From: Methylocapsa sp. S129
GTDB taxonomy: Bacteria; Pseudomonadota; Alphaproteobacteria; Rhizobiales; Beijerinckiaceae
Assembly (NCBI RefSeq): GCF_009765995.1
Contig: NZ_LMUI01000011.1
Location: forward strand, 304,285 to 368,284
DNA length: 64,000 nucleotides
Direction of reading: 5' to 3'
Numbering within the stretch: position 1 is the first letter of the stretch; every line of letters begins with the position of its first letter. A model generated the notes under the pieces. That model saw only the letters and a list, made by a program, of their open reading frames with translations. It made no database searches and was not told the origin of the DNA. A program made the position numbers and the translations under genes. Below are positions 872 to 6,759 of the stretch, piece by piece.

Positions 872-1900
872 ATGAAATCGTTGGTCAAAGCCAAGTCGGA
901 ACGCGGCCTGTGGCGGGAGGAGACGCCGCGCCCGGAATTTGGGCCGAACGATGTGCTGATTAAAGTGAGGAAGGCGGCGATCTGCGGCACCGACCTGCAT
1001 ATCTATAATTGGGACAAATGGGCGGCGCGCACCATTCCCGTGCCGATGGTGGTCGGCCATGAATATCTCGGCGTGATCGAAGCGGTCGGCCGCGACGTGA
1101 CGGCGCTTAAGGTCGGCCAGCGCGTTTCGGGCGAAGGGCATATCGTTTGCGGCTTCTGCCGCAATTGCCGCGCGGGGCGCGGCCACCTCTGCCGCAACAC
1201 TTTGGGCGTCGGCGTCAACCGGCCGGGCGCCTTCGCCGATTATGTCGCAATCCCCGCCTCCAACGCCTATCTCATCCCCGATTCCATCCCGGACGAAATC
1301 GCCGCCATTCTCGATCCGCTGGGCAACGCCGTCCACACGGCTTTGTCCTTCGATCTCGTCGGCGAGGATGTGCTGATCACCGGCGCCGGGCCGATCGGCC
1401 TGATGGCGATCGCGATCTGCCGCCATGTCGGCGCGCGCAATATCGTCATCACCGACGTCAACGATTATCGCCTCGCCTTGGCGAGGACGATGGGCGCGAC
1501 GCGCGCGGTGCGCGCCGACCGCCAGACGCTGAAAGAAGTCATGGTCGAAATCGACATGCATGAGGGCTTCGACGTCGGCCTCGAAATGTCGGGCAACCCG
1601 AAAGCCCTGCGCGACATGATCGGCGCCATGAACAATGGCGGCAAGGTCGCCCTGCTCGGCATCCTCGCCGACGAGGCGGCGATCGACTGGAACGAAGTCA
1701 TTTTCAAAGGCCTGACGCTGAAGGGCATCTATGGCCGCGAGATGTACGAGACCTGGTACAAGATGCTGGCGATGCTGCAGAGCGGACTCGACGTCTCGCC
1801 GGTGATCACCCATCGCCTGCCGATGGCGGAGTTCGAGACGGGCTTTGCGGCGCTGAATGCGGGGCAGGCGTGTAAGGTGGTGCTGGATTTTAACGCGTGA
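872..1900 (+). CDS. tdh: L-threonine 3-dehydrogenase
   Basis: This cytosolic zinc- and NAD-dependent dehydrogenase oxidises threonine to 2-amino-3-oxobutyrate, which Kbl then splits. At 342 residues it matches the family length. Visible ligands are Cys38 in ICGTD, His63 and Glu64 in GHEYLG for the catalytic zinc, and Cys93, Cys96, Cys99 and Cys107 for the structural zinc, at the same numbering as the Escherichia coli enzyme. A Rossmann motif GAGPIGLMA lies near residue 172. The start ATG follows kbl by 31 bases, consistent with a kbl-tdh operon for threonine catabolism. Downstream there is no strong terminator, only about 140 bases to the next promoter. Confidence 0.96.
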
Positions 1901-2008
1901 GACCGCTCTTTTGAGGAAGCAGAATGGAGCGTTGACGGCGTAATTTCCGCGCGCAGCGTGGGCCGCGCATCGTCGCTCGAATTCTTAGTCTTCTCGGACT
2001 CGACGACC

Positions 2009-2036
2009 TTGATAAACCCAACAGATGGGTTATATT
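2009..2036 (+). promoter_or_regulatory. Sigma-70-type promoter with an inverted repeat filling the spacer
   Basis: A -35 box TTGATA (2009-2014) and a -10 box TATATT (2031-2036) are 16 bases apart. The spacer is almost exactly an inverted repeat, AACCCA (2015-2020), ACAGA, TGGGTT (2026-2031). A protein bound here would block RNA polymerase, so it reads as an autoregulated promoter for the DUF4160/DUF2442 pair. The predicted start point (about 2043) falls on the ATG at 2042, so the message may be leaderless. Boxes and repeat are seen; activity is inferred. Confidence 0.6.
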
Positions 2037-2041
2037 AAGGA

Positions 2042-2290
2042 ATGGTTGTCGTCCATCGCGCTCACGGCTTCCGGTTCGTCATTTACACCCTCGATCACGA
2101 ACCGGCGCATGTCCACATTACCGGAGCGGGACAGGCGAAAATCAACCTGCTTGGACCGGATGGCGCGCCTGAAGTGGTGTCCAGCATCGGCATCAAGCGG
2201 TCTGACATGCGGCCCCTCATCGCGGAGACAATCGCGCGCCGCGACGATTTTTTGCAGGAATGGGAGCGTATCCATGGTCGACGCAACTGA
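2042..2290 (+). CDS. DUF4160 domain protein, first gene of a small two-gene module
   Basis: An 82-residue protein of the DUF4160 family, recognised from its pattern of a short N-terminal strand, HEPAHVHITG (about residues 19-28), and a C-terminal helix rich in Arg and Glu. The biochemical role of the family is not established; it commonly pairs with DUF2442 proteins, and such pairs have been proposed to act as toxin-antitoxin-like modules. The purine-rich AAGGA at 2037-2041 directly abuts the ATG, too close for a normal ribosome binding site, which supports a leaderless start. The 3' end overlaps the next gene by 17 bases, so the two are translationally coupled. Confidence 0.8.
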   Translation: MVVVHRAHGFRFVIYTLDHEPAHVHITGAGQAKINLLGPDGAPEVVSSIGIKRSDMRPLIAETIARRDDFLQEWERIHGRRN

Positions 2291-2693
2291 CGCGCAGATC
2301 AGAGCGGCCGAAGCGCGTGGTCGCAAGATTCTGGAAACAGAACCCAGAGCCGCGAGTGCGCGTTATGATCGGGCCGCAGATCGTGTCGTGGTCGATCTGG
2401 TCAACGGATGCGCCTATGCGTTCCCCCCACAGCTTGTGCAGGATCTGCATGGCGCAAGCCAGGACGATCTTGCGAATGTCGAGGTGGACGGGCTTGGGTT
2501 CAACCTGCATTGGCCCGCGCTTGACGTGGACCTCTACGTACCGGCGTTGGTGTCCGGCATCTTCGGGACCCGCGCCTGGATGACTCGGGCGTTGGCCCGC
2601 GCGGCCGGGCGCACGACTTCGCCAGCGAAGGCGGCGGCGGCTCGCTCGAACGGCGCGAAGGGCGGTCGTCCTCGTAAGAGCGTGAGCCGCTGA
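2274..2693 (+). CDS. DUF2442 domain protein, partner of the DUF4160 gene
   Basis: A 139-residue protein. The start ATG lies inside the end of the DUF4160 gene. Residues about 20-85 resemble DUF2442, with the pattern VVVDLVNGCAYAFPP followed by a GLGFNLHWPALDVDLYVPAL segment. The C-terminal 40 residues are Ala, Lys and Arg rich, ending GGRPRKSVSR, an AT-hook-like basic tail that could contact nucleic acid. DUF2442 proteins are often encoded beside DUF4160; the basic tail makes this the likelier DNA-binding partner, but that is inference. Its TGA stop (2691-2693) touches the stop codon of the convergent pyrB with no spacing. Confidence 0.78.
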   Translation: MVDATDAQIRAAEARGRKILETEPRAASARYDRAADRVVVDLVNGCAYAFPPQLVQDLHGASQDDLANVEVDGLGFNLHWPALDVDLYVPALVSGIFGTRAWMTRALARAAGRTTSPAKAAAARSNGAKGGRPRKSVSR

Positions 2694-3647
2694 TCACCCA
2701 TTCGGCAAATGCTGCGCCAGCGCCTCCAGCACCGCCATGCGCACGGCGACCCCCATCTCGACCTGCTCCCGGATCAGCGATTGCGCGCCATCGGCCACCA
2801 GCGAGTCGATCTCGACGCCGCGGTTCATCGGGCCGGGATGCATCACCAAAGCATCGGGCTTGGCCCAGGCGAGCTTCTCCTCGTCGAGGCCGAAATAGCG
2901 GAAATATTCCTTGGTCGAGGGCACGAAGGCGCCGTTCATGCGCTCGCGCTGCAGGCGTAGCATCATCACGATATCGGCGCCCGCGAGGCCGGCGCGCATA
3001 TCGCGAAAGACTTCGACGCCCATATTCTCGATGCCCGGCGGCAGCAGGGTCGAGGGGCCGACGACGCGCACGCGCGCGCCCAAAGCGCCGAGCAGCAGGA
3101 TATTCGAGCGCGCGACGCGCGAATGCAGGATGTCGCCGCAGATGGCGACGACCAGTCCTTCGATGCGCCCCTTGTTGCGGCGAATGGTCAGCGCGTCGAG
3201 CAGGGCCTGGGTCGGATGCTCGTGGGCGCCGTCGCCCGCATTGATGACGGAGCAGTCGACCTTGCGGGCGAGCAGATGGACAGCGCCCGCCTGATGATGG
3301 CGCACGACGATAATGTCGGGCCGCATCGCATTGAGCGTCGCCGCCGTGTCGATCAGCGTCTCGCCTTTTTTGACGCTGGAATTGGCGGTCGACATGTTCA
3401 TCACATCGGCGCCGAGCCGCTTGCCGGCCAGTTCGAACGAGGATTGCGTCCGGGTGGAGGCTTCGAAGAATAGATTGATCTGCGTGCGCCCGCGCAAGGT
3501 CGTGCGCTTCTTCTCGACCTGCCGGGAAATCTCGACGGCGGAATCGGCCAGATCGAGCAAAGCGACGATCTCCAAAGGCGAAAGACCTTCGATGCCGAGC
3601 AGATGGCGTTGCGCGAAAATCGGCTTTTGAAGCGTTGCTTGCATCAA
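2694..3647 (-). CDS. pyrB: Aspartate carbamoyltransferase catalytic subunit
   Basis: Catalyses carbamoyl phosphate plus aspartate to N-carbamoylaspartate, the committed step of pyrimidine synthesis. At 317 residues it is full length. The carbamoyl phosphate site STRT (residues 64-67), the [10 protein letters not shown] segment and MHPGPMNRG near residue 267 are all present. In many Hyphomicrobiales pyrB is followed by pyrC, plsY, dprA and topA on one strand. Here pyrB points away from topA and none of the three intervening genes is present, which indicates a local rearrangement. No pyrI-type regulatory subunit is nearby. Confidence 0.97.
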
Positions 3648-3734
3648 GAGGAGAGCCTATATGCCCTGGACCGTGATCGGGCAAGACAGGGCGCGCCCGA
3701 GTTCCGCCCTTGATGACCGCGCTTTCCCCACCAT

Positions 3735-3829
3735 TTGACACGCGGCCCGCCCTCCACCATTTTCCGCGCCCTGTTCGGCATGGCCGAGTCAAAGCATTTT
3801 CGCGGTCGCCAGCTCTTTTAAGGCTGGCG
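3735..3829 (+). promoter_or_regulatory. Candidate topA promoter and leader hairpin
   Basis: TTGACA at 3735-3740 is a perfect -35 box; the best -10 at normal spacing is CATTTT (3758-3763), which is weak. Downstream, CGCCAGC (3807-3813) and GCTGGCG (3823-3829) form a 7-pair hairpin with a 9-base loop, ending 26 bases before the topA ATG. Such a leader stem could affect translation of topA. The hairpin is plain in the sequence; the promoter and any regulation are inferred. Confidence 0.4.
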
Positions 3830-3855
3830 TCATCCGCGCTCGAGGACAATTTCGC

Positions 3856-6759
3856 ATGAAGGTTGTGATCGTCGAATCGCCGTCTAAGGCCAAGACAATC
3901 AATAAATATCTGGGCAAGGACTATGACGTCTACGCCTCGTTCGGCCATGTCCGCGATCTGCCGCCCAAGGACGGCTCGGTCGATCCGGAGAACGATTTCG
4001 CCATGCTTTGGGAGGTCGACGGCAAGTCGTCCAAGCGCCTTTCCGAGATCGCCGCCGCGGTCAAGGACGCCGACCGCGTCATTCTGGCGACCGACCCGGA
4101 TCGCGAAGGCGAGGCCATTTCCTGGCACATCTACGAGATCCTGAAAGGCAAACGCGTTCTCAAGGACAAGCGCGTCGACCGCGTGGTCTTCAACGCGGTG
4201 ACCAAGGAAGCCGTCCTCGACGCGATGCGCCATCCCCGCGAGATCGACGCCGCTTTGGTCGACGCCTATCTCGCCCGCCGCGCGCTCGATTATCTCGTCG
4301 GCTTCAATCTGTCGCCGGTGTTGTGGCGCAAACTGCCCGGCGCCCGCTCGGCGGGCCGCGTGCAATCGGTGGCGCTGCGCATCGTCTGCGACCGCGAGCT
4401 GGAGATCGAGAAATTCGTCAAACGCGAGTATTGGTCGCTCGTCGCCCACCTGAAGACAGCGGCCGACGCGCCCTTCACCGCGCGGCTGGTCGGCGCCGAC
4501 GGCAAGAAGATCAACCGGCTCGACATCGGGTCCGGGAAAGAGGCCGAGGATTTCAAAGCGGCGCTCGACGCCGCCAAATTCTCGGTGGTCGAGGTCGAAT
4601 CAAAACCCGCCAAGCGGCACCCCTATCCGCCTTTCACTACATCGACCCTGCAGCAGGAAGCCTCGCGCAAACTCGGTCTCGCGCCGGCGCGCACGATGCA
4701 GATCGCGCAACGTCTTTATGAAGGCGTCGATCTTGGCGACGGGCCGGCCGGACTCATTACCTATATGCGCACCGACGGCGTCGACCTTGCGCCAGAGGCG
4801 ATCGCAGGCGCGCGCCAGGTGATCGGCAAGGATTTCGGCGACAAATATGTTCCGGCGGCGCCGCGCAAATACACGGTCAAAGCCAAGAATGCGCAAGAGG
4901 CGCATGAGGCCATCCGCCCGACCGACCTCACCCGCCGGCCGCGCGAAGTCGCGCGCCATCTGGAAGGCGATCAGGCTAAGCTTTACGAATTGATCTGGAC
5001 GCGAACGATCGCCAGCCAGATGGAGAGCGCCGAACTGGAGCGCACCAGTGTCGACATTCTGGCCGCCGCCGGCGCGCGGCGCCTGGATTTCCGCGCCACC
5101 GGACAGGTCGTGCGCTTCGACGGGTTCCTCGCGCTCTATCAGGAGGGGCGCGACGACGAGGAGGACGAAGATTCCAGCCGCTTGCCCCCGATGGCGGCGG
5201 GCGAGGCGCTCGCCAAGGAGCGCATCGAGGCGTCGCAGCATTTCACCGAACCGCCGCCGCGCTATACCGAGGCGACGCTCGTCAAACGCATGGAGGAACT
5301 GAGCATCGGCCGGCCTTCGACCTATGCCTCCACGCTCGCGGTGCTGCGGGATCGCGATTATGTGCGGCTTGAGAAAAAGCGCCTGTTTCCCGAAGATAAA
5401 GGGCGGCTCGTGACCGCTTTCCTGGAATCCTTCTTCACTAGATATGTCGGCTATGATTTCACCGCCGATCTGGAAGAGAAGCTCGACAAAGTCTCCAACA
5501 GCGAAATCGACTGGAAGGATCTGCTGCGCGATTTTTGGCGCGACTTCTCCATCGCGATCGGCGGCACCAAGGATCTGCGCACCACGCAGGTGCTCGACAG
5601 CCTCAACGAATTGCTCGGCCCGCATATTTTCCCCGCGCGCGAGGATGGCGGCGATCCGCGCCTTTGTCCGCTTTGCAACAAGGGGCAATTGTCGTTGAAA
5701 CTCGGCAAGTTTGGCGCTTTCATCGGCTGTTCGAATTATCCCGAATGCAAATTCACGCGCGTCCTGTCGCCGACCGGACAGGACCAGGCTAAACTCGTCG
5801 AAGGCGAGCGCCCCGGCGTGCGCGCGCTCGGCCAGGACCCCGCGACGGGCGAGGAAATCACGCTGCGCAGCGGGCGCTTTGGCGATTATGTGCAGCAGGG
5901 CGAAGGAGAAAAACCCAAGCGCTGTTCTCTGCCGAAAGGGTTGGCGCCGGCCGATGTGACTCTAGAGCAGGCGCTCGCTCTGTTGTCGCTGCCGCGTGAA
6001 GTCGCGCGTCATCCCACCAGCGGCGAACCGATCCTGGCCGGCATCGGGCGCTACGGCGCCTATGTCCAGCATGCGAAGACTTACGCCAATCTCGGCAAGG
6101 ACGAAGACGTGCTGGCGATCGGCGGCAATCGCGCGATCGACCTCATCGTCGCCAAAGAGAGCGGCGCCGGCGGGCGGCGTTTTGGCGCGGGATCGGGCCG
6201 CGCGCTGGGCGACCACCCGACCCTGGGCGGCGCCGTCAGTGTGAAGGAAGGGCGCTTTGGCGCCTATGTCAATCATGGCAAGATCAACGCGACCTTGCCC
6301 AAGGGGACCGATACAACGACGCTGACGCTCGACGACGCCGTCGCCGCACTCGCAGCGAAAGCGGCGGGAGGCGGGGTCGGCGGCGGGCGCCTGCTCGGCG
6401 AACATCCCAAAGGCGGCCCGATCTCGGTCCGGCCCGGACGGTTCGGCGCCTATGTCAATTGGGGCAAGGTCAATGCGACGATCCCGAAATCCGTCTCGCC
6501 CGACGACATTTCGCTGGGTGAAGCCATCGACCTGATCGAGGAGCGCGAGGGCCGTCCCTCCGGCGCACGCGGGAAGCCGGCCCGCAAGGCGCCGGCCAAG
6601 GCGGGCGCGACAAAGAAGGCCGCGGCCAAGAGCGATCCGCCCTTCAAGCCGGACGCCAGGGCCAAATCCACACCTTCGGCCGCCAAGCCCTCCGCCACGA
6701 CGAAACCCAAGGCGAAGCCTATCAAAAAGCCGGCGGCGAAAGCCAAGCGCAAGGCGTGA
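3856..6759 (+). CDS. topA: DNA topoisomerase I (type IA)
   Basis: Relaxes negative supercoils by transient single-strand cleavage. The 967-residue protein starts with the TOPRIM motif IVESPSKAKTI (residues 5-15), has the acidic triad DPDREGEAIS (80-89), and the nucleophilic tyrosine is Tyr303 in GLITYMRTDG. A four-cysteine zinc ribbon (CPLC...CSNYPEC) lies near residues 605-631, followed by several repeated RFGAYVNHGK-type modules, typical of alphaproteobacterial TopA C-terminal repeats. The last 90 residues are a Lys, Ala and Pro rich basic tail, probably for DNA or RNA polymerase contact. In relatives topA directly precedes rnr; here a methyltransferase and a toxin-antitoxin pair lie between them. 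Confidence 0.97.
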   Translation: MKVVIVESPSKAKTINKYLGKDYDVYASFGHVRDLPPKDGSVDPENDFAMLWEVDGKSSKRLSEIAAAVKDADRVILATDPDREGEAISWHIYEILKGKRVLKDKRVDRVVFNAVTKEAVLDAMRHPREIDAALVDAYLARRALDYLVGFNLSPVLWRKLPGARSAGRVQSVALRIVCDRELEIEKFVKREYWSLVAHLKTAADAPFTARLVGADGKKINRLDIGSGKEAEDFKAALDAAKFSVVEVESKPAKRHPYPPFTTSTLQQEASRKLGLAPARTMQIAQRLYEGVDLGDGPAGLITYMRTDGVDLAPEAIAGARQVIGKDFGDKYVPAAPRKYTVKAKNAQEAHEAIRPTDLTRRPREVARHLEGDQAKLYELIWTRTIASQMESAELERTSVDILAAAGARRLDFRATGQVVRFDGFLALYQEGRDDEEDEDSSRLPPMAAGEALAKERIEASQHFTEPPPRYTEATLVKRMEELSIGRPSTYASTLAVLRDRDYVRLEKKRLFPEDKGRLVTAFLESFFTRYVGYDFTADLEEKLDKVSNSEIDWKDLLRDFWRDFSIAIGGTKDLRTTQVLDSLNELLGPHIFPAREDGGDPRLCPLCNKGQLSLKLGKFGAFIGCSNYPECKFTRVLSPTGQDQAKLVEGERPGVRALGQDPATGEEITLRSGRFGDYVQQGEGEKPKRCSLPKGLAPADVTLEQALALLSLPREVARHPTSGEPILAGIGRYGAYVQHAKTYANLGKDEDVLAIGGNRAIDLIVAKESGAGGRRFGAGSGRALGDHPTLGGAVSVKEGRFGAYVNHGKINATLPKGTDTTTLTLDDAVAALAAKAAGGGVGGGRLLGEHPKGGPISVRPGRFGAYVNWGKVNATIPKSVSPDDISLGEAIDLIEEREGRPSGARGKPARKAPAKAGATKKAAAKSDPPFKPDARAKSTPSAAKPSATTKPKAKPIKKPAAKAKRKA

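Follow-up and report, generated by a model that had tools for sequence, protein, structure and literature searches.

Toxin-first operons need an excess of antitoxin though the antitoxin is encoded second, and the question raised by the present locus is how such an excess might be secured in a gene pair whose promoter encloses an inverted repeat and stands almost against the start codon of the first gene. The pair, a DUF4160 gene followed by a DUF2442 gene, lies in a stretch of 64,000 nt that is hereafter called the window. It is probably best explained as an autoregulated chromosomal toxin-antitoxin module of the DhiTA-like kind, with the toxin first and the toxin mRNA leaderless; a leaderless toxin, an antitoxin with a strong Shine-Dalgarno sequence inside the toxin gene and a single operator overlapping the promoter would together offer a possible answer. 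RNA polymerase would use the promoter TTGATA-N16-TATATT and start at the A of the toxin ATG or no more than about 1 nt away from it, the toxin would be translated from the leaderless mRNA end without a Shine-Dalgarno sequence, and the antitoxin would be translated through its own strong one in the last toxin codons, either by independent initiation or by coupling. The antitoxin, better when complexed with the toxin, would then bind the repeat between -35 and -10 and exclude polymerase.

The preliminary description had reported a perfect AACCCA-N5-TGGGTT enclosed by this promoter and followed by an ATG at 2042, which direct reading bears out to the base (Table 1). With a spacer of 16 nt and a repeat of 17 nt, the final T of the repeat doubles in the window as the opening T of the -10 box. 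A consensus scan found this to be the sole sigma-70-like promoter in 1000-4000, with a score of 10/12; as 0.9 such matches are expected in shuffled sequence, the promoter match is by itself weak evidence. The window's 64 kb contain a single exact copy of the repeat and none was present in 100 dinucleotide shuffles, while a search allowing two mismatches found 1 against 0.85 expected across the window, so that the loose version alone is meaningless. What raises the observation above chance is, as judged from sequence comparison, conservation in relatives. The purine-rich stretch that had been described as touching the ATG does abut it, but is peculiar to the window locus and absent from relatives; it was rejected as a ribosome-binding site because of its zero spacing and its lack of conservation, and probably is not one.

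Table 1. Features of the DUF4160/DUF2442 pair and of its control region, in window coordinates
Feature	Position	Strand	Basis
-35 box TTGATA	2009..2014	+	consensus scan; -35-like hexamer kept in relatives
Putative operator, inverted repeat AACCCA-ACAGA-TGGGTT	2015..2031	+	direct reading; repeat kept in relatives
Operator half-sites AACCCA and TGGGTT, gap ACAGA (5 nt)	2015-2020 and 2026-2031		
-10 box TATATT	2031..2036	+	consensus scan; ends 5 nt before ATG
AAGGA abutting ATG	2037..2041	+	direct reading; -5 to -2 unconserved
Predicted transcription start, A of toxin ATG (leaderless)	2042	+	-10 distance, conservation, control genes; prediction only
Toxin gene, DUF4160, DhiT-like, 82 aa	2042..2290	+	ORF, Pfam, homologue alignment
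Antitoxin Shine-Dalgarno GGGAG, within toxin gene	2262..2266	+	duplex energy comparison
Antitoxin gene, DUF2442, DhiA-like, 139 aa	2274..2693	+	ORF, Pfam, homologues; overlaps toxin gene by 17 nt
Codons of conserved basic tail SPAKAAAARSNGAKGGRPRK, residues 116-135	2619..2678	+	alignment of 50 sequences

Of the order, 297 genomes were searched for toxin homologues and 12 had one, the window's own included. The named loci are the best 80 of 172 confirmed among 263 stretches, mainly from Alphaproteobacteria, and a further 14 loci come from plasmids, of which 79 records gave a match. Upstream comparison covered 92 loci (the window, the 80 named and 11 from the same order), of which 90 offer 50 nt or more of upstream sequence (78 of the 80 named; L026 and L088, with too little upstream sequence, were left out). 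Several loci from the order coincide with Hyphomicrobiales loci of the named set, as upstream sequence shows for L008 and L030 and for L011 and L090, which makes Hyphomicrobiales very probably the order of the window. The repeat is kept at 10 or more of its 12 bases in 84 of the 90 loci and at 11 or more in 78, window included, counts that are not independent because homologous loci share descent, so that Fisher values overstate. Among the 86 loci with a score of at least 9 the gap measures 6 nt in 63, 5 nt in 22 and 7 nt in a single one; the invariant core of the repeat is AACCnA / TnGGTTA, and a -35-like hexamer (at least 4/6) lies 15-19 bp upstream of the -10 box in 79 of the 84 repeat-bearing loci. 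The footprint of 34 loci that agree in layout reads CTTGAAA, AACCCATC, GATnGGTT, TAT and then the start codon, with no conservation upstream of -36, a sharp onset at -35 and none at -5 to -2. No such repeat was seen upstream of L043 and L071. The site accompanies the gene pair across many alphaproteobacterial families and plasmids, and the conservation of the repeat and of its position before homologous pairs, on which the preliminary description had staked its reading, is thus what the comparison returned.

The position of the toxin start codon was examined in 73 non-redundant loci, obtained from the 84 repeat-bearing ones at less than 85% upstream identity. In this set, which was selected for the repeat so that one base of the -10 box, its first T, is fixed, the end of the -10 box lies exactly 5 nt from the toxin start codon in 50 loci and 4-6 nt from it in 58. 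A promoter score of at least 8/12 at 4-6 nt is found for 46/73 toxins against 2/83 control genes, the latter being annotated genes of two alphaproteobacterial plasmids; the corresponding numbers are 8/73 and 3/83 at 0-2 nt, and at 8-10, 14-16 and 24-26 nt no toxin (0/73) and 0, 4 and 4 of the 83 controls reach the score. Between -18 and -4, 5/73 toxins against 42/83 controls reach a Shine-Dalgarno energy of at least -5.5 in strength, and the window toxin, at -3.1 kcal/mol in the same interval, belongs with those lacking a Shine-Dalgarno sequence. The toxin start codon is ATG in 61 of the 73. On these comparisons transcription likely starts at the toxin ATG, with the proviso that the loci are related and the counts not independent. 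An excess of C or T at -1 (41/50 toxins against 47/83 controls, uncorrected Fisher 0.003) is only suggestive as a start-point signal, and was set aside in that role as leadered DUF4160 genes of other clades are, by eye, also pyrimidine-rich there.

The same promoter and operator could also serve a start 1-5 nt to either side, giving either a leader of a few nucleotides or a transcript that begins within the ATG, in which case the toxin would depend on short-leader 70S initiation or would hardly be made in this lineage. Transcription usually starts 6-9 nt after the -10 box, a range that covers the A, the T and the G of the ATG, and the spacing from -10 box to start codon spans -2 to 7 nt among the non-redundant loci. 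This displaced start is nonetheless judged unlikely, as a distance of exactly 5 nt is the rule even though the five bases concerned are unconserved, and +1 at 2042 would be an A, a preferred start base. There are 15 exceptions among the 73, of which 14 lie at less than 4 nt and 1 at 7 nt, and in these the usual start codon would be off the predicted 5' end. Repeat and promoter are kept in L019, L012-L014, L024, L025, L044, L046, L089 and L092 with a start codon -2 to 2 nt from the -10 box, a spacing that the leaderless model does not explain; L012 and L014 have a GTG 4-5 nt after the ATG, and in L039 the toxin start codon was not placed. Some loci have TTG, GTG, ACG or ACT at the start position, all of which are poor leaderless starts in E. 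coli. In L021, L031, L032 and L085 an ACG or ACT takes the place of the toxin ATG at a distance of 5-6 nt from the -10 box; these loci represent either lost starts or unusual initiation.

A sister clade of toxins, marked by MPTVLR..VVIYPNDHRPAHVH, stands on a separate branch with full support (100/100), and its upstream repeat is mostly CCTAAGCGCTTGGG-like; 13 of the 14 sister-group loci (L016-L018, L130-L140) fall in this clade of mostly different operators. Many of these loci have a TAnnnT-like box near the ATG. In 8 of the 14 the end of a -10-like box lies 5-7 nt upstream of the ATG, namely in L017, L130, L131, L133, L135, L136 and L139, and in L016, where TTATAT was read by eye at 5 nt; in the others the box stands 0-2 nt from the ATG or is absent under the same rule. 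L016 has a type-1-like repeat, AACCCA..TGGGTT, which the strict text pattern labelled type 2, such patterns matching neither type in 12 of 94 rows. Operator sequence thus appears to have changed more than promoter placement between the clades. The idea that every DUF4160 gene starts without a leader was rejected, since distant members of the MPVISMFYG type often have AGGAG-type leaders and lack such a repeat (7 of 33 loci, without a profile match, were left out of this reading).

Related genes of other kinds were met along the way. The window's own genome has a second DUF4160/DUF2442 pair of another clade on contig C49 (L001), with an ordinary purine-rich leader and an internal stop in the DUF4160 gene. 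On contig C14 (L002, about 1467-2140) a DUF4160 gene is followed by a protein with a helix-turn-helix-like end, as read by eye, for which Pfam made no DUF2442 call. Contig C15 (L005, 1423-1830) carries a solitary DUF2442 antitoxin with a GGRPRK tail and no adjoining DUF4160 gene, preceded by what we take to be a gene of the gamma-glutamylcyclotransferase type. An IMG/VR contig (L099, about 2920-3260) holds a DUF4160-like gene with TTGACG-N18-TATATT-N6-ATG and an imperfect repeat in the spacer, its partner being a 72-aa protein unlike DUF2442.

The second gene of the pair is provided for differently. Starting from 106 loci and omitting 8 (L026, L036, L038, L040, L064, L078, L088 and L012), 98 remained, representing 89 distinct toxins. 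Among these 89 pairs the two genes overlap by 8 nt in 55, by 17 nt in 19 and by 14 nt in 9. The mean anti-Shine-Dalgarno duplex energy is -7.6 for the antitoxin against -3.5 for the toxin, and an energy of -5.5 or better at -20 to -1 is reached by 82/89 antitoxins against 10/89 toxins. The GGAG or GGGAG of the antitoxin is embedded in the codons for W-x-x-IHG, the conserved end of the toxin. As the antitoxin has a Shine-Dalgarno sequence and the toxin mostly has none, the two genes seem to be arranged for different initiation routes.

The toxin of the window matches Pfam DUF4160 at 8.6e-11 and 42.3 bits (cut-off 23). An in-frame TAA at 2036-2038 allows no start further upstream in its frame, and in the alignment the conserved N-terminus of its homologues begins at the ATG at 2042. 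The NCBIfam DhiT equivalog NF048015 scores the protein at 16.1 bits (E 0.013) against a curated cut-off of 100 bits, and it is therefore named DhiT-like rather than DhiT; it is a remote, alphaproteobacterial relative of DhiT. Residues D18, H19, P21, H23, H25 and W74 are conserved among homologues. The AlphaFold2 model has a pLDDT of 94, and comparison of this model with known structures neither assigned nor excluded any fold (best Foldseek E 0.44, best VIA-align Z 4.1); a sequence search of the PDB gave a best E of 0.02, other hits being worse. No family of the PADLOC-DB antiphage models matched toxin or antitoxin at E up to 1. The pair is flanked by a gene with zinc-type alcohol dehydrogenase domains, presumably threonine-dehydrogenase-like, and by a convergent aspartate-carbamoyltransferase-like gene.

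The antitoxin matches Pfam DUF2442 at 7.2e-13 and 49 bits (cut-off 23.9), so the window holds a DUF4160-then-DUF2442 pair in that order, with both Pfam cut-offs passed and a 17 nt overlap. It has a homologue in the PDB, the orphan structural-genomics entry 3K8R from Rhodospirillum rubrum, with unassigned function, which was matched at a sequence E of 5.7e-52 and has the same fold (Foldseek TM 0.95 on target). Its basic tail has the form R-x-NG-x-x-GGRP, with K119, A122, R124, N126, G127, G130, G131, R132 and P133 invariant in 50 sequences. The tail may be the DNA-binding part, perhaps as an AT-hook-like contact. To the preliminary description it had suggested the DUF2442 protein as the repressor partner; promoter repression by the second-gene product is published for relatives, and the tail is conserved but unchanged across differing operators. 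As a determinant of operator specificity it was rejected, for it is present in all 14 sister-group loci, and in a clade with mostly different operators the same tail means that specificity must reside elsewhere.

A scan starting from the DNA searched 397 genomes of the order with the pattern TTGNNNAACCNA-N5-6-TNGGTTA and returned 14 promoter-operator sites in 14 genomes, against 9 sites for the reversed-pattern control. Ten of the 14 stand directly before the gene pair or its remnant: 8 immediately upstream of a toxin frame that matches that of the window, 1 (L155) upstream of a toxin interrupted by an internal stop, and 1 (L152) upstream of a toxin whose middle is lost, its first and last residues being kept and the antitoxin being intact. 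In L152 (around 1500-2025) operator and promoter are kept and the antitoxin Shine-Dalgarno is held in the retained toxin residues, so that the locus looks to be an antitoxin-only derivative.

Such loci lend some colour to the idea that the window module, too, is decayed or a harmless remnant, its architecture inherited and its toxin inactive. L157 is likewise damaged across the gene junction, and the internal stop in the paralogue on contig C49 points the same way. The two frames of the window run to full length, with the residues invariant in each family in place, which makes decay quite unlikely here, and the window copy is presumed active.

The remaining 4 of the 14 sites lie elsewhere and are poor palindromes. 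An operator regulon was rejected on this basis, as so small a number is chance-like beside the control, and in the 397-genome sample the operator appears private to the DUF4160/DUF2442 module. The same distribution bears on a host regulator, rather than the antitoxin or its complex, as the protein that binds the repeat, with the pair wired into a host response. The identical tail in the clade of different operators gives this reading an opening, since the tail alone leaves specificity unexplained; it is very unlikely given that the full sites stand mostly at the gene pair, that the site travels with the pair across families and plasmids, and that DhiA acts in E. coli as a repressor of its own promoter, according to the available part of the report (PMC8198452). 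Binding by the antitoxin or its complex with the toxin thus stays the preferred reading, and the form of the repeat indicates a site on DNA. At pair 5 of the repeat, 29 of the 84 loci have C-G, 5 have T-A, 6 have T-G and 44 have C-A or another mismatch (C-A in 38), and the remaining five pairs are almost always kept; as pair 5 is not kept paired, a protein site on DNA is indicated rather than a hairpin. Transcription of the repeat from a farther upstream promoter, with an RNA hairpin in a 5' leader hiding or presenting the start codon, would suit the perfect repeat of the window, which could fold, and the near constancy of five of its six pairs, but it is highly improbable and was rejected as main explanation, the mismatches at pair 5 being uncompensated, the promoter boxes hugging the repeat and conservation ceasing upstream of -36.

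If the autoregulated module with a leaderless toxin is taken as the working explanation, a further idea, speculative and in our estimate rather improbable, is that it acts as a sensor of canonical translation initiation. One mRNA would then feed two routes, a leaderless 70S route for the toxin and a Shine-Dalgarno 30S route for the antitoxin, and conditions favouring leaderless initiation would raise the ratio of toxin to antitoxin from existing mRNA and set the toxin free without antitoxin proteolysis. In normal growth the weak leaderless start would keep the first-placed toxin below the antitoxin. Apart from this idea, the locus provides a defined candidate operator for a poorly studied antitoxin fold, suggests by homology to the antitoxin a role for the crystal structure 3K8R, and would extend leaderless toxin-antitoxin expression, which is wide in Mycobacterium tuberculosis, to a conserved proteobacterial family.

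The preliminary description had regarded the function of DUF4160/DUF2442 pairs as not established, which is out of date, as they are published toxin-antitoxin modules; its picture of a small autoregulated module resembling a toxin-antitoxin system agrees with the available text of that work, including repression by the second-gene product (PMC8198452). In Dickeya dadantii 3937, dhiTA is a co-transcribed toxin-antitoxin module with the same gene order, and in E. coli DhiA cuts its own promoter by about 50% and the DhiTA complex by more, as given in the part of the paper at hand (PMC8198452). It shares with the window a DUF4160 toxin in first place, a DUF2442 gene in second and a small overlap, and its promoter is repressed by antitoxin and complex, as is proposed for the window; protein similarity is weak, as the NCBIfam score shows, and the accessible portion of the paper mentions neither a palindrome nor a leaderless start (PMC8198452). 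The persistence-enhancing module of a Thermus thermophilus plasmid is likewise a tandem of DUF4160 (87 aa) and DUF2442 (92 aa) in which the second ORF neutralises the first, and no transformants were obtained with the plasmid lacking ORF2; its antitoxin is much shorter than the window's, and promoter and start point are not described in the sections available (PMC12724237). Toxicity and neutralisation are thus published for the Dickeya and Thermus relatives, as far as the available parts of the two papers go (PMC8198452, PMC12724237).

Other systems resemble the window in translation or in control. In M. tuberculosis, 37 toxin-antitoxin gene pairs have a primary start site and 32 of them are leaderless according to the accessible text, although these modules are of other families and the host is an actinobacterium with about a quarter of its genes leaderless (PMC3898074). 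In Methylosinus sporium, of the same order as the window, 88 leaderless transcripts are given in the available excerpt, mostly of stress regulators and toxin-antitoxin genes (PMC12403871). For paaR2 of E. coli O157:H7, the leaderless first gene of a toxin-antitoxin locus, and for lambda cI, the start was mapped to the initiator codon, and both resemble the proposed module in being autoregulated through an operator within the promoter region, but there the leaderless gene is the regulator and not the toxin, in the part of the source that could be drawn on (PMC8630535). The PvuII restriction-modification genes pvuIIC-pvuIIR have a leaderless first gene overlapping an independently initiated second gene, yet the first encodes an activator and the second the harmful protein, again by the available text (PMC2997769). 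The open papers searched on DUF4160, DUF2442, DhiT, DhiA or leaderless antitoxins yielded no description of the present arrangement. A leaderless toxin fits the known trend in view of the leaderless toxin-antitoxin genes of M. tuberculosis and Methylosinus sporium; what seems new is the combination, within one family, of an operator in the promoter spacer with a toxin that is leaderless and an antitoxin that has a Shine-Dalgarno sequence.
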